39,790 nucleotides of DNA from Candidatus Latescibacterota bacterium (GTDB taxonomy: Bacteria; JAAXHH01; JACQVL01): positions 1 through 39,790 of the forward strand of contig JACQVL010000267.1 in assembly GCA_016209865.1 (NCBI GenBank), read 5' to 3'. The position numbers and the translations under genes were made by a program. Under the pieces are notes generated by a model. It did no database searches. It saw only the letters and a program-made list of their open reading frames with translations, and had not been told where the DNA came from. Positions 8,220 to 36,613 of the stretch are shown in pieces (within the stretch, counting starts at the first letter, position 1; every line of letters starts with the position of its first letter).

Positions 8220-10982
8220 TCATTTCTCCTTCGCGGTCCAGACGGGGAAGTCTTCGGGGACCGGTTCGGCCTTGAACCGTTCGCACCGGTCGATGTAGAG
8301 CTTTGAAGGACCATCGTTCGGGTCGAGCTTCAGGGCGGCGAAGAGCTTCTCCAGGGACTCGTCCCACTGTTGCGCCCGGTACAACTGGAGGCCTTCGTTG
8401 TACAGTTGGACGATCGCCGCTTTGTCCGGCGCGAGCGCGCCCTTCCGGCTGAGTATTTCGTAGATCGTGACGGGTTCAACCTTGCCCACGACGCGCAGGA
8501 GGTCCAATTCGCGCGCTTCGACGACGTCCTGCGCCATCTTGTAGGTGTTCTCGCTGACGGTGATGTGCGTCCCGTACGGTTTGCTCCCGCTCTCCAGCCG
8601 GGAGGCGAGGTTCACCGTATCCCCCATGACCGTGTAGTCCATCCGTTGCGGACACCCCATGTTCCCGACGACCGCCGGCCCGGTGTTCATCCCCATCCGT
8701 GCGCGGATCTTATAGACGTAGTCCGGACGGCCATCGGCTTTCCATTGATCACGGAGTTGGGTCAGTTTCTCCTGCATCGTCAGGCAGGCCATGCAGGCAT
8801 GCACGGCGTGGTCCGGGTCGTCCAGGGGGGCGCCGTAGAACGCCATGATCGCATCGCCTTCATACTTATCGACAGTGCCCTGATGCTGCATGATGATTTC
8901 CGTCATCGCCCCGAGATAGACGTTCAACAGGCCGACCAGCTCTTCGGCCGACATCTTCTCGGAGACCGACGTGAACCCGGCGATATCGGAGAAGAAGACC
9001 GTCAGCACCTTGCGCTGACCGCCCAAGTCGAGGAGGCCGGGGTCACGGGCGATTTGATCGACGACGGCCGGGGACAGGTACATCTTGAACGAATTCTGGA
9101 TGTACGACCGCTCCCGCCGTTCGACGATGTAATTGTTCACGCTGATCGTCAGGTACGAGAGGATGATGACACTGATCGGGCCGACGACGTCGACCCAGAG
9201 GCCGCTCAGCGTGAACAGGTAGTACGCCGAACTGAGCTGGGCGGCCAGGAGGCCGGTCACGACGAGCGCTCCGCTGAGCGGGCCGAACAGCGGGACGATC
9301 AGCCCCATGATCACCCCGAGCGACAGGATCACGGCCAGGCGGTACGGCCGGTCTATCCGGTGAAGGAATTGCCCGGTGATCATCGTGTTCAACGCGTTGA
9401 CGTGATACCCGAGCATCGGATAACGGGGGTTGAACGGGGTCGGGTTCAGGTCCTGAGTGCCGGTCGCGGTCAACCCGTAGATGAGGACTTTGTCCTTCAG
9501 GTCGGCCGGGAGGAGTTCTTTCCCCTGATGGATGACGGTGAAGAAGATCAGCGGGTGATCTTCCTGATGGATCCCCCCGTGTCCCATCAGGTTCTTCATG
9601 GCGTAGAAGCTGTGTTCGATCGTATCGAGCCGCTTGATCCCCAGACGCGCCGCCACCTGCTCCAGGGTGATGGAGGAGTTCTGCTTGAGCAACGCCTCGA
9701 TCCGCAGGCTGTTCTGGATCGTCTCGAAGAACTGGCGGAGGTCGGGTGGGATGTCTGGCTCCGCAATACCCTGGGCGGCGAAGAAATTGACGAGGGTCAG
9801 GTTCTGGTTCTGCGTGAGGGCCTGCTCGATCTGGTTACAGAGCCAGACCGTTCTGTAGGCCGTCTGCACCGTCTCTGGAGGGCCGATGTTGTAGGCCGTT
9901 GCTTCCTGCAGGAACAATTCGGGGTTCGCCAGGAGTTCCGGCTTCTTATAGACCAGCCGTTTGACATCTCGGAGTACGACGTTCTCGGCGTACATCGTGG
10001 CGAGCTGTGTCAATCGCGCGTACGGGTAATGGGAGAACGTCTCCTCATAGTCGCCCGCCCAGTTGACGAGCATCTTGCCCTGGTCGTCGATCGGGATGTC
10101 CAGGTCCTTCACGGTGCCGTCCGGGTAACGGGCCTTGGGGAGCCGAATCCGCTTCCCGGGCACGACCTGGATCGTCTTGAACGGCACATGGAAATAGTCG
10201 CAGAGCATGATCAGGCTGATGGAGGGGTACAGCTTCTGATCATAGATCCGGACGAGCTGGTACCAGCGCACCACCCCATCGATGTCGACGATAGGCTGCA
10301 CAAACCCGACCCCTTTGACCGCACGGATGAACTGCGGGAGGGGGGGATCAAGATCGACCGCTTTGAAGAAGTTCGTCTGCTTCCCCTGCGGATAGTCGAG
10401 GTAAAAGCCGCGCTCTGTGAACGCCTGGTAGGCATCCTCCTTGCGCGGAGTCCGTTTCACGGTGTTGTTGAGGACAAAGTCCCAGTCGGGGTTGGGCGAT
10501 CTCATGAGATAATACGAGAAGTACGCATTCCCGGCCTGACGGCTGATTTCTTCCAGCTCTTTATCGTAGTCTCTAAATAGACTCTGGACCTTCTCAGGTG
10601 TATACTCATTCAGGACGTCTAACTCCTGCCGTTTAATCATACTCTCACTGGGTTCGATGAAGAAGATATCGAACCCAACCATCCGCACGCCGAAGTCCGC
10701 CAGAATCTTGACCAGTCGGGCGTGCTTGTCCCGCGTCCAGTCTTGGAAGCGTCCTTCTTCTCCGACCGTCTCGTCGTCGATGTCGACTGATCCGAGGTTC
10801 GGGTCAGTGGGAATCTTGCCGCGCAGGACGAACCGTTCATCGAGGGTACGCAATTCCAGCCGTTCGTACGCTTCGAGGTAACTCCAGGCGACGACGAGCA
10901 GGCTGACCCCGATCCCGAACCCGAGGTAGCGGGGCCAGTCCAGCCGTTTTTTCTTCTTCGACGGTTTGGAATCCGTGTTCAT
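8220..10982 (-). CDS. CHASE2-domain class III adenylate cyclase with C-terminal TPR
   Basis: The 920-residue protein has an N-terminal helix (about 22-34), a large extracytoplasmic CHASE2 sensor (about 45-535), three helices (about 547-615) and a cytoplasmic class III cyclase domain (about 640-840). Metal-binding Asp are in FFSDIAGFTS and YEGDAIMAF, the purine Lys in VDKYEGD, a Thr in DYTVMGD at the base-selecting position, and Asn/Arg in VNLASRLES. Lys plus Thr points to ATP as substrate, so cAMP is the expected product. A helical insertion (about 330-480) makes this CHASE2 larger than usual. A short TPR-like pair ends the protein. ATG 10982 was preferred over GTG 11009; neither has a strong ribosome site. 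It heads the sirtuin-TPR-pyr operon. Confidence 0.92.
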   Translation of the reverse strand: MNTDSKPSKKKKRLDWPRYLGFGIGVSLLVVAWSYLEAYERLELRTLDERFVLRGKIPTDPNLGSVDIDDETVGEEGRFQDWTRDKHARLVKILADFGVRMVGFDIFFIEPSESMIKRQELDVLNEYTPEKVQSLFRDYDKELEEISRQAGNAYFSYYLMRSPNPDWDFVLNNTVKRTPRKEDAYQAFTERGFYLDYPQGKQTNFFKAVDLDPPLPQFIRAVKGVGFVQPIVDIDGVVRWYQLVRIYDQKLYPSISLIMLCDYFHVPFKTIQVVPGKRIRLPKARYPDGTVKDLDIPIDDQGKMLVNWAGDYEETFSHYPYARLTQLATMYAENVVLRDVKRLVYKKPELLANPELFLQEATAYNIGPPETVQTAYRTVWLCNQIEQALTQNQNLTLVNFFAAQGIAEPDIPPDLRQFFETIQNSLRIEALLKQNSSITLEQVAARLGIKRLDTIEHSFYAMKNLMGHGGIHQEDHPLIFFTVIHQGKELLPADLKDKVLIYGLTATGTQDLNPTPFNPRYPMLGYHVNALNTMITGQFLHRIDRPYRLAVILSLGVIMGLIVPLFGPLSGALVVTGLLAAQLSSAYYLFTLSGLWVDVVGPISVIILSYLTISVNNYIVERRERSYIQNSFKMYLSPAVVDQIARDPGLLDLGGQRKVLTVFFSDIAGFTSVSEKMSAEELVGLLNVYLGAMTEIIMQHQGTVDKYEGDAIMAFYGAPLDDPDHAVHACMACLTMQEKLTQLRDQWKADGRPDYVYKIRARMGMNTGPAVVGNMGCPQRMDYTVMGDTVNLASRLESGSKPYGTHITVSENTYKMAQDVVEARELDLLRVVGKVEPVTIYEILSRKGALAPDKAAIVQLYNEGLQLYRAQQWDESLEKLFAALKLDPNDGPSKLYIDRCERFKAEPVPEDFPVWTAKEK

Positions 10983-11021
10983 GGGCGTTGCGCGAGGTGA
11001 GAACAGCACGAACGGTGAGAC

Positions 11022-26972: not shown

Positions 26973-28250
<1,278 letters not shown>

Positions 28251-28291: not shown

Positions 28292-29431
28292 CTATCCTCG
28301 CTTCAACTCGTCCACTTTATCGCAGTGCTCCCACGTAAACTCTGGCTCATTCCGGCCGAAATGGCCGTACGCGGCGGTCTTCGCGTAGATCGGCCGGCGC
28401 AGGTCGAGCCGGTCGATGATGCCGGCCGGGGTGAGGTCGAAATGCTTGCGAACCAGCCGGGCGACCTCGGTGTCGGGCATGACGCCCGTCCCGAACGTGT
28501 TGATCATGATCGACACCGGGTCGGCCACCCCGATGACGTAGGCTAACTGAATCTCGCACTGGGCCGCCAGTCCGGCGGCGACGAGATTCTTCGCCACATG
28601 GCGCGCGGCATAGGAGGCCGACCGGTCGACTTTCGTCGGGTCCTTGCCCGAATACGCCCCTCCGCCATGACGGCAGAACCCCCCGTACGTATCGACGATG
28701 ATTTTACGCCCGGTTAACCCCGTATCCCCGTGCGGGCCTCCGATGACGAACCGTCCGGTCGCATTGATAAAGTACTTGATGCGACCCGGATCGATCAACT
28801 CCTTCGGGATTTCCAGGAGAATCACTTTGGAGATGATGTCATCCCGAATCTGTTCACTGGGCACATCCGGGTGGTGTTGGGCGGCGATGACGACCGTATC
28901 GACGCGGGCCGGTTTCCCGTTCACGTACTCCACGGTCACCTGCGTCTTCCCGTCCGGCCGCAGGTACGGGATCGTCCCGGTCTTCCGGGCTTTCGCCAGC
29001 CCCATCGCCAGCCGCTGCGCTAAGGTGATGGGCGTGGGCATGAGCTCCGGGGTCTCGTTCGTCGCGTACCCGAACATCATCCCCTGATCCCCCGCCCCCA
29101 GCCGGTCGACCCCCATGGCGATATCGCTCGACTGACGGTCGATCGTCGTCAGGACGGCGCACGTCTCCCAGTCGAACCCGTAGCTGGAGTCCGTGTAGCC
29201 GATCGTCTTGACCATGTTCCGGGCGACCGTCGGCATATCGACGTAGGCCGACGTGGTGATCTCCCCCCCGATGATCGTCAGGCCGGTCGTCACGAACGTC
29301 TCGCAGGCGACGCGCGCATACGGGTCTTTCTCGATGATCGCGTCGAGCACGGCGTCCGAGATCTGATCGGCGATCTTGTCGGGATGGCCTTCCGTGACGG
29401 ATTCAGAGGTGAACAGATAACTCGATGGCAT
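28292..29431 (-). CDS. metK: S-adenosylmethionine synthase
   Basis: The 379-residue enzyme makes S-adenosylmethionine from methionine and ATP. Signatures seen are [20 protein letters not shown] with the ATP-site His, [30 protein letters not shown] and [22 protein letters not shown] at 29440-29445 lies 8 bases before the ATG. The gene leads a metK-ahcY pair. The upstream 66 bases hold an ATTCCCGC palindrome but nothing resembling a SAM riboswitch. Confidence 0.97.
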
Positions 29432-29497: not shown

Positions 29498-30475
29498 TTA
29501 AAAACTCACCTCCGACGAATCTCCCACGTTGAGGTGAAGATAGGACCCTTTGACGACCGCTCGATCCCCGATGAGCGAGCCTTCCAGCAGGCAATCCTGG
29601 ACAGTCGCACCTTCGCTGATGATCGAGTTGCTGATGACCGAATGCTGGACGATCGCCCCGCCCGCGATCGAGACGAACGGGCCGATAACCGACGCCATGA
29701 TCTGGGCGTCATCGGCGATGGAGACGGGCGGCAAGATGATCGAGCCGTCGATCCGGCGGGGTGTCGCGCGCAGCTCCAACAACCGCCGATTCGTCTCCAG
29801 TAACGTCTCCGGCTTCCCGCAATCGTACCACTCATCGACGGTGAACGTGATGAGCGGCTCGTCCCGTTCGACCATCAACTGGAGGGCATCGGTCAGTTGA
29901 TACTCCCCCCGCGTCGTCCGCCCGGTGCGAATGAGGTCGTCGAGACACTGGGCAAACACCGGAGTGCAGGCGATGTAGTACACCCCGGCGATCACTAAAT
30001 TCGACCGGGGATGCTCCGGCTTCTCGACGAGACGGACGACCCGGTTGTCCTCCACTTCGACCACCCCGAACCGCCGGATGTCCCCCTGCATCGGTTTCAC
30101 TCCGATCGCGCTCAAATTTGAGTGAGCGCGCAGGTGGGAAAAATCGGAGTTGAAGATCGTGTCGCCGAGGATGATGAGGACCGGTTCGTCGTCGAAGTGC
30201 TCCCGGCCGAGATGGATCGCATGGGCGATCCCGCACGTCTCGTGCTGGACGACGTAATGGGCGTTGAACGCGTACTGGGTATTCACGTAATCGATGATCT
30301 TCTGGCCCATGTTCCCGATGATCAGGGTGACCTCCTGGACGCCTAACGCCACCAGCTCATCCAGGATATACCCCAGGATCGGCTTGCCGGCGACGTGCAT
30401 CAACGCCTTCGGCGTGGTATGCGTGTGCGGTCGCAGGCGGCTGCCGATCCCGGCCACGGGGATGATCCCTTTCAT
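29498..30475 (-). CDS. Sugar-phosphate nucleotidyltransferase with left-handed beta-helix tail
   Basis: The 325-residue protein opens MKGIIPVAGIGSRLRPHTHT, the NTP-binding signature of the GlmU/RmlA/ManC-like superfamily, and has a metal-site Asp in LIILGDTIF, GVYYIACTPVF, and a C-terminal hexapeptide-repeat beta-helix (about 235-315: IMASVIGPFVSIAGGAIVQH and following). It should make an NDP-sugar for surface glycan or LPS; glucose-1-phosphate thymidylyl- or uridylyl-transfer and mannose-1-phosphate guanylyl-transfer are all possible. The start at 30475 has a weak GAGG. A CRP-like palindrome and a TATACT -10 box lie just upstream, so cAMP control is plausible. Confidence 0.88.
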   Translation of the reverse strand: MKGIIPVAGIGSRLRPHTHTTPKALMHVAGKPILGYILDELVALGVQEVTLIIGNMGQKIIDYVNTQYAFNAHYVVQHETCGIAHAIHLGREHFDDEPVLIILGDTIFNSDFSHLRAHSNLSAIGVKPMQGDIRRFGVVEVEDNRVVRLVEKPEHPRSNLVIAGVYYIACTPVFAQCLDDLIRTGRTTRGEYQLTDALQLMVERDEPLITFTVDEWYDCGKPETLLETNRRLLELRATPRRIDGSIILPPVSIADDAQIMASVIGPFVSIAGGAIVQHSVISNSIISEGATVQDCLLEGSLIGDRAVVKGSYLHLNVGDSSEVSF

Positions 30476-30504
30476 CGAGCGCCTCGTCGTGTTACAACAC
30501 AATC

Positions 30505-30635
30505 GGTGGTCGGTAGTCAGTAACACCAGAAAAGTTAGTATAAAATCATTCAAAGAGAGAAAACGGATGTGATGAAAATCACATTTCCCAGACCACCTGC
30601 TCTCACCGACCACCGACTACCGACCACCGACCACC
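30505..30635. repeat. Facing GGTGGTC/GACCACC heptamer arrays
   Basis: The left array is GGTGGTC and GGTAGTC (30505-30518). The right array (30608-30635) is GACCACC, GACTACC, GACCACC, GACCACC and contains the TAG stop of the inositol-phosphatase gene. Between them lie a -10 box and the CRP-like site. Confidence 0.85.
30537..30583 (-). promoter_or_regulatory. CRP-like site and -10 box upstream of the nucleotidyltransferase gene
   Basis: TGTGA-TGAAAA-TCACA at 30568-30583 is an exact match to the TGTGA-N6-TCACA CRP consensus, and the symmetry extends one base each way (A...T). On the minus strand a TATACT -10 box follows at 30537-30542, without a good -35. The site is centred about 45 bases upstream of the predicted start near 30530, roughly where an activator would replace a -35. 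CRP/FNR-family recognition is inferred. Confidence 0.6.
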
Positions 30636-31576
30636 GAATCTTTTACATACGCCACGAGTGCCTGGTGAACCGCCGGGGTGGCGCTGGCTGCGCACGAGAG
30701 CACGTTCTGCTCCGTCGTGTCGAGCACCGGGACGCTCCCCAGGTCAGTCCCGTCCGCGTCCGTTACCACCCCGCCCGCTTCCTGGACGATCAGGACGGCG
30801 GCCGCGATATCGTACGGAAACAGGCCGAGCACCCGCCCCTGGCCCGCCGCCAGGAAGTCCGCCCGGCTCTCCGGCCGCTGGGCGAGGATCCATCCTCCGA
30901 CGTCCAGGTACGCGTCGAGCTGGCCGGTCGTGAGACGGGTGAGCGCATACGACGAACTGTTGAACACGAACACCCCGGCCCGGACGGACGACCGGTCGAT
31001 CAACGGGCCCAGGACGTCGATGACGTGCTGAGCGGGACGCCCGACCAGTTCAAACCCCCAGAAGACCTCGCCGAGGTCCGCGCCCGTCGCACGCGTCGGG
31101 ACGAGACACGGCCGGCCGTCGAGCCGGGCGCCGCGCCCGCGCTCCGCCGTGAAACACCGGCCGGACTGGATCTCGATCACACACCCGGCCCGGACATCCC
31201 GGAGCCGGGGGGTCTCAAGACACGGGCACACGGCGACCGACACGCACGCCTGCTCGAACCCGACGGCGGCGGGCCGGGTCCCGTCGATCGGGTCGACGAT
31301 AAGCAGCCAGTCGGGCGAAGGGGCGACCTCGACCAGTCCCTTGTCCTCGGAGTAGTACGCCACCTGGACATCCGTCCGCTGAAGGTAATCCTGCAAGGCC
31401 GTCTCGGCCACCCGGTCGATCTGGAACGTCGCATCCCCGCTGGCCGCGGTCCCGACCACCTCCCGTGCGGTCCGGTGGCCGGCGAACGGGAGGACGGCCG
31501 ATCGGATGGCGCGCGCCACGGCCTGAGCCAGGCCGGTCACCGAGCTCGTTTCGTCAACTCCTCCCAGCCTACTCAT
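30617..31576 (-). CDS. Inositol monophosphatase family protein
   Basis: The 319-residue protein has the IMPase/FBPase-IV metal sites: SEDKG (Glu), WLLIVDPIDGTRPA (Asp-Pro-Ile-Asp-Gly-Thr), and FPYDIAAAVLIVQEAGG. It should be a Mg-dependent phosphatase for an inositol, fructose-1,6-bis- or 3'-phosphoadenosine phosphate; the substrate cannot be chosen. It is about 50 residues longer than SuhB because of insertions in the middle. The ATG overlaps the ptsI stop by eight bases, and it ends the PTS operon. Its last residues and TAG (DSVVGGR) are the translation of a GGTGGTC heptamer array. Confidence 0.85.
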   Translation of the reverse strand: MSRLGGVDETSSVTGLAQAVARAIRSAVLPFAGHRTAREVVGTAASGDATFQIDRVAETALQDYLQRTDVQVAYYSEDKGLVEVAPSPDWLLIVDPIDGTRPAAVGFEQACVSVAVCPCLETPRLRDVRAGCVIEIQSGRCFTAERGRGARLDGRPCLVPTRATGADLGEVFWGFELVGRPAQHVIDVLGPLIDRSSVRAGVFVFNSSSYALTRLTTGQLDAYLDVGGWILAQRPESRADFLAAGQGRVLGLFPYDIAAAVLIVQEAGGVVTDADGTDLGSVPVLDTTEQNVLSCAASATPAVHQALVAYVKDSVVGGR

Positions 31577-33332
31577 ATCCGATCGCGTTCTTGAAGCACA
31601 CCTGAAATTCCGCCTGGGTATAGTCCTGGATATCCTTCGACGTGGAGAGGGTAACGGCGTACTGAGCGATAGCCTGTGCCTTCGAGAAGGTGACAGATCG
31701 GATGATTTTCTTGATTTCGGGAATATCGATCGTGCTCATGCTCAACTCATCCACCCCCAGGCCGAGCAGCAGGAACGCAGTGATGGGATCCCCCGCCATC
31801 TCGCCGCACACGCCCACCCAGAGACCTTCATGATGCCCCGCCTCGACGACCGAGGCGATCAACCGGAGGATCGCCGGGTTGAATGGGTCGTAGTACGCGG
31901 CGATCTTTGCGTTGCTCCGGTCGACTGCTAAGGTATACTGAATCAGGTCGTTCGTCCCGATGCTGAAGAAATCCACCTCACGCGCCAGGTCTCGGGCGAT
32001 CAGCGCCGCCGAGGGGACTTCGATCATCATCCCGACCGGGATGGAGCGATCGTACGGGATGCCCGCGCCATCCAGCTCAGCCCGGGCTTCATCGAGGATC
32101 TGTTTGGAGTGCCTCAGGACGGCCAGCCCGGAGATCATCGGGAACATGATCCGGAGGTTGCCCATCGTGCTGGCCCGGAGGATCGCCCGCAACTGGGCTT
32201 TGAAGAGATCGGGCCGCTCAAGACAGATCCGGATGCCCCGGTACCCCAGCGCCGGGTTGGCTTCGTGCGGGAGGTCCAACTGATGGAGGACTTTATCCGT
32301 CCCCAGGTCGAGCGTCCGGATGATGACGGGCTTCGGAGCCAGGCGTTGGGCGATATCCCAGTACGAGGCGTACTGTTCCTCCTCGGTCGGCAAGGTCGGG
32401 CGTAAGATGTACAGGAATTCGGTCCGGTAGAGGCCGACCCCGACCGCTCCGGAGGAGAGCACCCCATCGATCTCGCTGGGGAGTTCGATGTTCGCCGACA
32501 CGTCGACCGCATGACCATCCGGAGTCACGGCCGGGAGGTCCTTCAGACGGGTCAACCCGCGTTCGACGGCGGATTGTTTCGTCCGGGCTTCCTCGAAACG
32601 GCGCAGGGTGTCCTCGTCCGGGTTGAGGTAGATCGCCCCGTCATTCCCGTCGACGATGATGAGCGAGCCGTGCTCGATCTCACGGGTGGCAACGTCAACC
32701 CCGACCACCGCCGGGATGGCCAGGCCGCGAGCGACGATCGCCGCATGGGCGGTGCGTCCCCCGCCGTCGGTGACGAACCCGAGGACGGAGTCCCGGTGCA
32801 TCTCCGCCGTGTCGGAGGGGGAGAGGTGATGGGCAACGACGATCACCGGGGAGGTGAGGTCGGCGAGCGGAAGCCGCTGTTCCCCCCGGAGATGGGCGAG
32901 TACGCGATGCCGGATGTCTTCAAAGTCGGCCGTTCGTTCGCGGAGGTAGGGGTCGGTGGCCGCCGCCATCGTAGCGATGCCGCGTTGCATGATGGCGTTG
33001 AACACCCACTCCGCGTTCTTGCGCTCCCGACGAATCCGGGCGATCGTCGCGCCGACCATCTCCGGGTCGTCCAGGAGCGTCAGGTGGGCGCCGAAGATAT
33101 GAGCGATCTCCTCGCCCACATCCCCGGCGATCCGCTCCTGCAGGACGATCAGGTCGTCCCGGGTGCGCACGATCGCCTCCTGAAACCGGTCGACCTCCCG
33201 TTCCACGTCTCCTTCCGCCAGGTCGCGCTCTTGGACGCGGAATTCCTGCCGGTCGAGCAAGAAGGCCGGGCCGATGGCGATCCCGGGCGACGCCGGAATC
33301 CCGGACAGGGTGCGGACAGAGGAAGTGCTCAT
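31569..33332 (-). CDS. ptsI: Phosphoenolpyruvate-protein phosphotransferase, enzyme I
   Basis: The 587-residue cytosolic enzyme takes phosphate from PEP and gives it to HPr. The active-site segment GGGRTAHAAIVARGLAIPAVVG contains His196 (Ala replaces the usual Ser before it). The PEP-binding barrel has GLYRTEFLY, EVPSAALIA, DFFSIGTNDLIQYTLAVDR and GVCGEMAGDP with the conserved Cys. It overlaps ptsH by four bases and the phosphatase gene by eight. No sugar-specific EII gene is seen nearby. Confidence 0.96.
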   Translation of the reverse strand: MSTSSVRTLSGIPASPGIAIGPAFLLDRQEFRVQERDLAEGDVEREVDRFQEAIVRTRDDLIVLQERIAGDVGEEIAHIFGAHLTLLDDPEMVGATIARIRRERKNAEWVFNAIMQRGIATMAAATDPYLRERTADFEDIRHRVLAHLRGEQRLPLADLTSPVIVVAHHLSPSDTAEMHRDSVLGFVTDGGGRTAHAAIVARGLAIPAVVGVDVATREIEHGSLIIVDGNDGAIYLNPDEDTLRRFEEARTKQSAVERGLTRLKDLPAVTPDGHAVDVSANIELPSEIDGVLSSGAVGVGLYRTEFLYILRPTLPTEEEQYASYWDIAQRLAPKPVIIRTLDLGTDKVLHQLDLPHEANPALGYRGIRICLERPDLFKAQLRAILRASTMGNLRIMFPMISGLAVLRHSKQILDEARAELDGAGIPYDRSIPVGMMIEVPSAALIARDLAREVDFFSIGTNDLIQYTLAVDRSNAKIAAYYDPFNPAILRLIASVVEAGHHEGLWVGVCGEMAGDPITAFLLLGLGVDELSMSTIDIPEIKKIIRSVTFSKAQAIAQYAVTLSTSKDIQDYTQAEFQVCFKNAIGYE

Positions 33333-33598
33333 TCCGGCTCTCCGAATCGATCCTCGACGAGCTGAGCCAGGGTCGCGATCGCGTCCGCCTCATCCTCGCC
33401 GGTTGCCTGAATCGTGATCGCGCTGCCGTACTCGGCGGCAAGCATCATGACCCCCATAATGCTCTTTCCGTTCACCGTCAGATCATCTTTACTGATGAGA
33501 ATCTCAGAGCGGAACTTCGAGGCGGTCTGGGCGATCTGCTCGGCAGGGCGCATGTGGAGTCCTGTCTTATTCCGAATCGACACCGTGATTTCAGCCAT
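33329..33598 (-). CDS. ptsH: Phosphocarrier protein HPr
   Basis: The 89-residue HPr has the catalytic His15 in KTGLHMRPA and the regulatory Ser46 in GKSIMGVMML, the residue phosphorylated by HPr kinase. It receives phosphate from enzyme I. The presence of Ser46 agrees with hprK just upstream. The gene overlaps ptsI by four bases; the 65-base gap to hprK, where an EIIA gene sometimes lies in other bacteria, holds none. Confidence 0.96.
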   Translation of the reverse strand: MAEITVSIRNKTGLHMRPAEQIAQTASKFRSEILISKDDLTVNGKSIMGVMMLAAEYGSAITIQATGEDEADAIATLAQLVEDRFGEPE

Positions 33599-33663
33599 TG
33601 ACCGAGACGCGAATTCCTCTCACGGCAGACACCCTGGCGAGAGAGACACACGACCGGGCAGCC

Positions 33664-34629
33664 CTACTCAAAGTCCTCACGCAGGTACTTGCTATCGGCT
33701 GCCCGGAGTTTCATCAGATCGACGAGGCGTCGGTTCAAGTCCTGCGCGGGGTTCTGGCCGACCAGCTTCAGCAGATGATTCAGGGCGATGACTTCGGCAA
33801 TGACCGTGATATTCTTTCCGGGGACGATCGGAGTCATCACGAAGGGGATTTCGACGCCTAAGATCGTCTTCGTTTTATCTTCGAGGCCGATGCGTTCATA
33901 ATCAACTTTGTCGTCCCATTCCACCAGATGGACTTCCACTTCGACCCGTTTCTTCAGCCGGATGGCGCGGATGCCGAACATGCTGGGGATGTCGATGATC
34001 CCGATCCCACGAATCTCCATGTAGTGCTGGAGGAGCTCATTCCCGGTGCCGATCAGGACCCCTTGTTTCATCTGGTAGATCGTGACGATATCGTCTGCGA
34101 CTAAGCGATGGCCGCGCTCGACCAGGTCGAGGGCGGTCTCGCTCTTCCCAATCCCGCTCTTGCCGGTAAACAACAGCCCGATCCCGTAGACATCCACCAG
34201 CGAGCCGTGGACGGACGTCCGGGGCGCGAAATACGCCTCCAGGTAGTCGGCGAGTTGGTGGGTAAAATCGACTGTCGAGAGCGAGGTGCCCAGGACGGGG
34301 GTGTCCAGTCGGGTCGCGGCCGTCGCCAGTTCGACCGGCGGCGGGATGGCCTTCGTGATGATCACGCAGGGAATCCCGAACTCCAGCATCGTCTCGATCG
34401 ACTTCAAGCGGTCGGCCGAGGACAGACTGGAGAGGTACATCATCTCCGTCTCGCCCAGGACCTGGATGCGGTTGTGGGCGAACCGAGCGGTGAACCCGGC
34501 CAGGGCCAGTCCGGGCCGGTTCACCTCACTGTTGGCGATCTGCCGGGTGAGGCCGACATCGCCGGTCTGCGACGTGAGCCGCAAGTCCGCCCGTTTGAGC
34601 AATTCGCTGATTGACAGGGTTCGAGGCAT
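33664..34629 (-). CDS. hprK: HPr kinase/phosphorylase
   Basis: The 321-residue protein has an N-terminal HPrK domain (about 1-130) and a C-terminal kinase domain with His in HGSLVDVYG, the P-loop GKSGIGKS (about 156-163), LVADD, and the family signature MEIRGIGIIDI. It phosphorylates Ser46 of HPr with ATP or PPi and reverses the reaction with Pi, linking carbon or phosphate status to regulation. It starts directly after hpf and precedes ptsH-ptsI. Confidence 0.95.
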   Translation of the reverse strand: MPRTLSISELLKRADLRLTSQTGDVGLTRQIANSEVNRPGLALAGFTARFAHNRIQVLGETEMMYLSSLSSADRLKSIETMLEFGIPCVIITKAIPPPVELATAATRLDTPVLGTSLSTVDFTHQLADYLEAYFAPRTSVHGSLVDVYGIGLLFTGKSGIGKSETALDLVERGHRLVADDIVTIYQMKQGVLIGTGNELLQHYMEIRGIGIIDIPSMFGIRAIRLKKRVEVEVHLVEWDDKVDYERIGLEDKTKTILGVEIPFVMTPIVPGKNITVIAEVIALNHLLKLVGQNPAQDLNRRLVDLMKLRAADSKYLREDFE

Positions 34630-35145: not shown

Positions 35146-36585
35146 TTAGACTTTTTTCCGGTATCGGGCGGGCATGATGCCCAGTTGGTCCCGGTATTTG
35201 GCGATCGTCCGCCGGGCGATGTCCACCCCTTGCGCGTGCAGGACGTCCACGATCTTCTGATCGCTCAGCGGGTCGTGAGGGTCTTCCTCTTTGATGAGTC
35301 GGGCGATGCGGTCTTTCACGCTCTTCGTGGACAGTTCTTCCCCGTCTTCGGTCTCGATCATCCCGTCGAAGAAGAATTTCAGCGGAAACACCCCGCGCGC
35401 GGTCTGCACATACTTGCTGGCGGTCACCCGGCTGACCGTCGCCGGATGCATGTTGATCGCGTCCGCGACCTCCTGTAAGACCATCGGCTTGAGGGAGGGG
35501 AGGCCCTTGTCGAAGAAGCCGCGCTGGGCCTTGACGATGTAATTCATCACCTTCAACATCGTCGTCCGCCGCTGCTCGATCGAGTGGACGAGCCAGCGGG
35601 CGTCGTTCAGCTTCTGGCGGACATACTGGCGGGCATCGTCTGACGCGTGACTCGACCGGTTGAGAATCGTGAGGTACGTCCCGTTGATCCGCAACCGCGG
35701 CAGGTTCCGGTCGTTCAGCATGACGACGTACTCCCCGTCCACTTTCTCGACGATGAGGTCCGGGATAATCGGGATGGCGGTCTCACTCCCGATCGAGAGG
35801 CCCGGTTTGGGGTTGAGCTCAGCGATCTGCTGGAGCGCGTCCTGAATCGCTTCCTGGGACACCTTCAACGCTTTCTTGATCACCGCATACCGGCGATTCT
35901 GCAGGTCATCCAGGTGGTCGTGGATGATGCGGGCGGCGAGGGTATCTTCCTGATCGTCGGCCCGGAACTGGATCAAGAGGCATTCCCGAAGATTTCGGGC
36001 CCCAACCCCGACCGGCTCGAGGGTCTGCACCACCGTCAGGATCTGTTCGACCGTGGCCGGGTCCGTCCCGAGTTTCTCGGCGATCTCCTCGACCGGACAG
36101 GTGAGGTACCCGTCTTCCCCCAGGTTCCCGATGATGTACTCGCCGATCTCCGTCTCATAGACCGAGAGGCTCAACAGATGGAGCTGGGAGATCAGATGGT
36201 TGGCTAATGTCGTCCCCGTCTTCCCCTCGCGGTCGAGGAGATTCCGGTCTTCATCCCTCTCAGTCTGTTCGTGATGCTCGTATTCATACGCCACGCCATC
36301 CCGGAGGTACGCATCCCAATCGATCTCGTTCGACGTGGACTTGAGTCCGAGCTCTGCCGAGTCAACTTGCCCGTTCGTCTCGACGGGACTCTCGACGCTG
36401 TCGGCGCTCTGTTCCAGCTCATCCGGCTCGGTCGTCTCGTCCTCCTCTTCGAGCATCGGGTTGGTCTGGAGCTCCTGTTTCATCACCTGCTCGAGCTCCA
36501 GCAGCGGGATCTGGAGCAGCTTGAGCGACTGGATGAGCTGAGGCGAGATCGTCTGTGAGAGTTGGGTTCGTAATCCGAGTTCCAT
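35146..36585 (-). CDS. rpoN: RNA polymerase sigma-54 factor
   Basis: The 479-residue sigma factor has the Gln/Leu-rich activator region I (LSQTISPQLIQSLKLLQIPLL), an acidic region II, the core-binding domain, and the DNA-binding C-terminus with the RpoN box ARRTIAKYRDQLG. It directs transcription from -24/-12 promoters with enhancer-binding activators. ATG 36585 is preferred over ATG 36591 because AGGTGA (36593-36598) is 7 bases from the first and only one base from the second. It follows lptB by 28 bases. Confidence 0.96.
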   Translation of the reverse strand: MELGLRTQLSQTISPQLIQSLKLLQIPLLELEQVMKQELQTNPMLEEEDETTEPDELEQSADSVESPVETNGQVDSAELGLKSTSNEIDWDAYLRDGVAYEYEHHEQTERDEDRNLLDREGKTGTTLANHLISQLHLLSLSVYETEIGEYIIGNLGEDGYLTCPVEEIAEKLGTDPATVEQILTVVQTLEPVGVGARNLRECLLIQFRADDQEDTLAARIIHDHLDDLQNRRYAVIKKALKVSQEAIQDALQQIAELNPKPGLSIGSETAIPIIPDLIVEKVDGEYVVMLNDRNLPRLRINGTYLTILNRSSHASDDARQYVRQKLNDARWLVHSIEQRRTTMLKVMNYIVKAQRGFFDKGLPSLKPMVLQEVADAINMHPATVSRVTASKYVQTARGVFPLKFFFDGMIETEDGEELSTKSVKDRIARLIKEEDPHDPLSDQKIVDVLHAQGVDIARRTIAKYRDQLGIMPARYRKKV

Positions 36586-36613
36586 GACCATATCACCTGA
36601 CGATGAGGATGGA

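Follow-up and report, generated by a model that had tools for sequence, protein, structure and literature searches.

A candidate CRP-type operator ahead of an NTP-transferase–metK–ahcY unit in a Latescibacterota genome

A perfect palindrome at positions 30567–30584 of the window (the whole 39,790 bp stretch of DNA analysed here) is, with a probability that we put at roughly 0.6, an operator for a CRP-type regulator of E. coli-like specificity, likely activating an NTP-transferase–metK–ahcY unit. We infer that a dimeric regulator of the CRP type with specificity AAATGTGATCTAGATCACATTT would bind the palindrome, 100 bp before the unit, and most likely activate it, that the active form of this regulator is probably cAMP-bound, and that the protein is most likely an orthologue of the canonical CRP of related bacteria (RS..TN pocket, RETVSR helix). 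The orthologous gene would lie in the ∼ 17% of the genome (G000) that is outside the assembly. A CRP-type operator is an ordinary, known kind of switch. The features of the window that bear on this proposal are as follows.

8220–11009, minus strand: CHASE2 and class III adenylate cyclase, assigned from motifs in the translation
26973–28232, minus strand: ahcY, S-adenosylhomocysteine hydrolase, probable third gene of the unit
28292–29431, minus strand: metK, S-adenosylmethionine synthetase, next after the NTP-transferase
29498–30475, minus strand: NTP-transferase (sugar-1-phosphate nucleotidylyltransferase), first gene after the operator
30537–30542, minus strand: −10-like hexamer TATACT, predicted from sequence, with no −35
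30567–30584, no strand assigned: candidate CRP-type operator ATGTGAT-GAAA-ATCACAT, from its consensus match and top matrix score in G000
30617–31540, minus strand: gene of the inositol-monophosphatase family; 34 bp separate its end from the operator

An earlier note on this DNA had reported an exact match to the ten specified bases of the CRP consensus at 30568–30583. The match is confirmed (TGTGATGAAAATCACA, zero mismatches against TGTGA-N6-TCACA), and the palindrome is even longer than described, since it continues by one base on each side (ATGTGATGAAAATCACAT). All 14 specified bases of the extended E. coli CRP consensus, ATGTGAT-N4-ATCACAT, are present, as in the cAMP-CRP operator of that species. 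The note's chance rate of 0.04 per window was slightly too high, as Markov models of G000 predict the ten-base core 0.015–0.026 times in the window. Across the whole genome (3.75 Mb) the core was seen three times against 1.1–2.4 expected; all three copies are intergenic, where 0.5–0.7 are expected. The extended 14-base form, present in the window, is expected only ∼ 0.007 times per G000 genome by the same models. On its own, the evidence from G000 gives moderate support for an operator.

The palindrome lies in a 141 bp intergenic gap and both flanking genes are on the minus strand, so only the NTP-transferase is downstream of it, on the right strand for control and with its start (30475) 100 bp away. 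The inositol-monophosphatase-family gene, on the same strand, ends ahead of the operator and is therefore not a target. The NTP-transferase resembles RmlA-long and its kin, with scores below every NCBIfam cut-off, and is adjacent to metK in every member of the order searched and in some genomes outside the order. The earlier note had proposed as target an NDP-sugar enzyme linking cAMP to surface glycan synthesis. The glycan link in particular is not supported: with an operon of NTP-transferase, metK and ahcY, surface glycan is a weak reading. The unit would belong as much to SAM metabolism as to sugar-nucleotide synthesis, with surface glycan as one possibility among others. The data suggest the metK–ahcY unit, rather than surface glycan as such, as the target of a cAMP-type signal.

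G000 has a second ahcY (L149 2466–3722), 67% identical to that in the window, and a weaker, sixth CRP-like site (16.8 bits) lies ∼ 250 bp before it on contig C181. Each of the two ahcY copies thus follows a CRP-like site, one directly and the other as third gene of a unit. That a CRP-type regulator might control the activated methyl cycle, through the top operator before NTP-transferase–metK–ahcY and the C181 site before the second ahcY, is a tentative and rather doubtful extension.

The earlier note had also read the layout as that of an activator-dependent promoter. There is a −10-like TATACT and no −35, but the predicted spacing falls between the two E. coli classes: the hexamer places the predicted operator centre at −44.5 to −47.5 (about −45.5) from +1, whereas CRP sites in E. 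coli are usually at −41.5 (class II) or −61.5 (class I), and activation from near −50 is weak at σ70 promoters of that species (PMC2859248). This predicted spacing weighs only mildly against control by CRP. The note had treated absence of the site from orthologous promoters as evidence against its proposal, and absent it is: no site within two mismatches was found at the orthologous promoters of G001, G011 and G013, relatives that share only the order with G000. An operator need not be conserved from one family to another, so this absence weakens the claim but is compatible with it, and such control would be particular to the G000 lineage. An apparently closer relative, L099 (80% identity over 35 residues), was rejected for this comparison; its upstream gene differs (methyltransferase/reductase) and there is almost no promoter gap.

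We compared 16 genomes of the order, in which the nearest relatives of G000 are at order level. G011 and G013 each encode two CRPs whose cAMP pocket is intact (PRSAS or PRSAT, plus TN) and whose recognition helix reads RETVSR, and G001 has the N-terminal piece of a canonical CRP, 54% identical and ended by a contig edge. Exact sites number 15 in G013 (3.4–4.8 expected from Markov models) and 13 in G011 (1.0–2.4 expected); all 13 in G011 and 12 of the 15 in G013 are intergenic. The seven in G001 are, taken alone, not above chance (5.4–8.3 expected). In G013 and G011, TGTGA is followed by T in 18/24 and 18/26 half-sites (∼ 70%), a base that the search had left free. Searches of the 12 genomes of genus g3 found no canonical or full-length CRP match, and a single exact site occurs among them. 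Genus g3 lacks canonical CRP as well as the corresponding sites, both of which are retained by its family members G011 and G013.

The 28 G011/G013 sites were combined into a 22 bp matrix, whose consensus, AAATGTGATCTAGATCACATTT, is identical to that published for E. coli CRP (PMC2859248). The identity rests mainly on A-TGTGA-T, since the outermost and inner bases of the matrix carry only 0.01–0.18 bits each. These comparisons support the existence of CRP-type operators in this order; they indicate a CRP regulon with the E. coli 22 bp consensus in a poorly sampled group, present in some of its genera and missing from others in step with the crp gene, and so offering a natural experiment in the loss of a global regulator. 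When G000 sites with at most one core mismatch are scored by this matrix, the window site ranks first, and its 25.1 bits fall within the range of the 28 training sites (16.4–29.7 bits). The site itself and its fit to the CRP motif of the order are thus established.

The earlier note had looked to several further sites for support. Five sites in G000 score at least 18 bits, all of them intergenic, with ∼ 0.3 expected between genes (Poisson P = 1.6 × 10⁻⁵). Counted over both compartments, the expectation is 0.6–1.5, and under the order-1 model (1.5 expected, P ∼ 0.02) the whole-genome count of five is only mildly unusual. Both P values are weakened by the choice of the 18-bit threshold after the scores had been seen. 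Apart from the window site, this small set comprises:

C213: between divergent oxidoreductase and metallo-β-lactamase-fold genes
C265: 77 bp before ccmF
C133: between genes for a molybdenum-hydroxylase FAD subunit and a fibronectin-type protein
C296: intergenic

The looser sites do not extend this picture. Those with at most one core mismatch number 47 genome-wide in G000, against 43–76 expected from Markov models, and matches to the extended motif with at most two mismatches number seven (5.4–6.9 expected), so there is no excess of either. An apparent threefold excess of the looser sites over the reversed pattern (47 vs. 16) was dropped as dinucleotide bias because the Markov models predict 43–76 for the motif and 17–40 for the reversed pattern; the reversed-pattern control is misleading for site counts in this genome. 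Overlap at the gene level between one-mismatch sites and the targets in G011 and G001 (4/29 genes vs. 0/259) was likewise set aside, with the exception of the divergent gene pair on C133, which has an exact site in G011 as well, though at a position that is not alignable. The sigma-factor and dockerin-like cases were discarded because their matrix scores are poor (9.2 and 11.4 bits), and the positions of the overlap-case sites did not align with those of their G011/G001 counterparts. Contig C35 also has, close to its end, two CRP-like sites 39 bp apart (L136 1995–2049 and L137 2017–2032). An inverted copy of one of these lies towards the end of contig C184, which probably reflects an unresolved assembly repeat.

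No canonical CRP was found in the G000 assembly (83% complete), which, with the different target genes, sets the window site apart from the E. coli system. The assembly contains one complete protein with a cNMP-binding domain and a Crp-type helix-turn-helix (C101:8408–9091). The earlier note had called for a CRP/FNR gene with a cAMP pocket and the conserved RE..R helix: a family member is therefore present, but three pocket features are missing and the recognition helix, RETTSL, lacks the last R. The pocket has RE for RS/RT and IE for TS/TN, and the protein departs from the canonical cAMP receptor pattern (RS/RT and TS/TN pocket, RE..R/K helix). The nearest solved structures are GlxR of Corynebacterium glutamicum and Rv3676 (CRP) of Mycobacterium tuberculosis; these share the RE of the recognition helix with the C101 protein but, unlike it, keep an RT and TN pocket and a RETVNK helix. 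The best NCBIfam model is NtcA, at 109 bits far below the family cut-off of 245. The gene has the genome's two best GTAAG-N4-CTTAC palindromes on either side, at C101:8270 and 9190 (L135 2771–2786 and 3691–3706). This arrangement suggests that the protein regulates its own gene through a local operator dedicated to it, probably TGTAAG-N4-CTTACA. Such an operator would fit the GTA-N8-TAC type bound by NtcA in cyanobacteria (PMC3898017), whereas the window site is a different motif. In view of the altered pocket and helix and of these different flanking palindromes, we regard the C101 protein as a local regulator with another operator.

A source of cAMP can be predicted in the window itself, where the complete adenylate cyclase gene mentioned by the earlier note is indeed present. 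It is one of four cyclase genes in G000, and its motifs SDIAGFT, DKYEGDAIMAF and DTVNLASR supply the two metal Asp residues, the substrate Lys and the transition-state Asn and Arg. This cyclase is a possible source of the signal, with no direct link to the palindrome.

The palindrome could instead be bound by the C101 protein without cAMP or with another ligand. It is the only two-domain CRP/FNR protein found in G000, its recognition helix retains R and E, and there is a precedent in DdrI of Deinococcus radiodurans, a CRP-family protein that binds TGTGA-N6-TCACA without cAMP and has an altered cAMP pocket, as in the C101 protein, and an altered R185 position (PMC11253593). The helix of DdrI, however, reads RETV followed by Thr-Lys, and the C101 protein has Leu at the position of R185, the residue with which CRP contacts G4, the second G of TGTGA (PMC11253593). 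Together with the flanking palindromes and the NtcA-like score, which both point to GTA-N8-TAC, this makes binding by the C101 protein unlikely. We give a similarly low probability to chance, that is, to a palindrome in AT-rich intergenic DNA that happens to match the consensus and was singled out through a reader's familiarity with CRP. The near-expected genome-wide count of the core, the ordinary number of looser sites in G000 and the orthologous promoters without a site are what a coincidence would predict, but the rarity of the extended form and the intergenic position of all five sites of at least 18 bits are not.

A relic, left behind after loss of CRP in the G000 lineage as in g3, would account for the absence of a canonical CRP match from the assembly. 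We consider it highly improbable: a perfect 14-base match should decay in the absence of selection, the g3 genomes, which have lost CRP, retain almost no sites, and G000 is only 83% complete. Least credible of all is an RNA hairpin, for instance one that terminates transcription of the inositol-monophosphatase gene upstream. A stem of 6–7 pairs is possible and a pyrimidine-rich stretch follows, but there are few G-C pairs; this reading was rejected because folding was no better than for shuffled sequences (z = 0.35) and a terminator scan gave no terminator-like site. A CRP-type operator is, by comparison, very probable given the CRPs and site excess of G011 and G013, the matrix rank of the window site, the intergenic sites of G000 and the scarcity of sites in g3. 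A role for cAMP and a canonical CRP at the palindrome is plausible in this organism.

On either side of the palindrome, at window positions 30503–30521 and 30612–30630, lie copies of a short repeat (TCGGTGGTCGGTAGT...) in inverted orientation to each other. The repeat TCGGTGGTCGGT, inverted around the site, was considered and set aside, as it has eight genomic copies and the others are without the palindrome; exact copies of GGTCGGTGGTCGGTAGTC, also eight across G000, are mostly intergenic. Genes for PTS enzyme I, HPr kinase and sigma-54 cluster just upstream (31569–34629 and 35146–36591), possibly a regulatory PTS beside the site, and a small gene in this cluster (33329–33598) perhaps encodes HPr.
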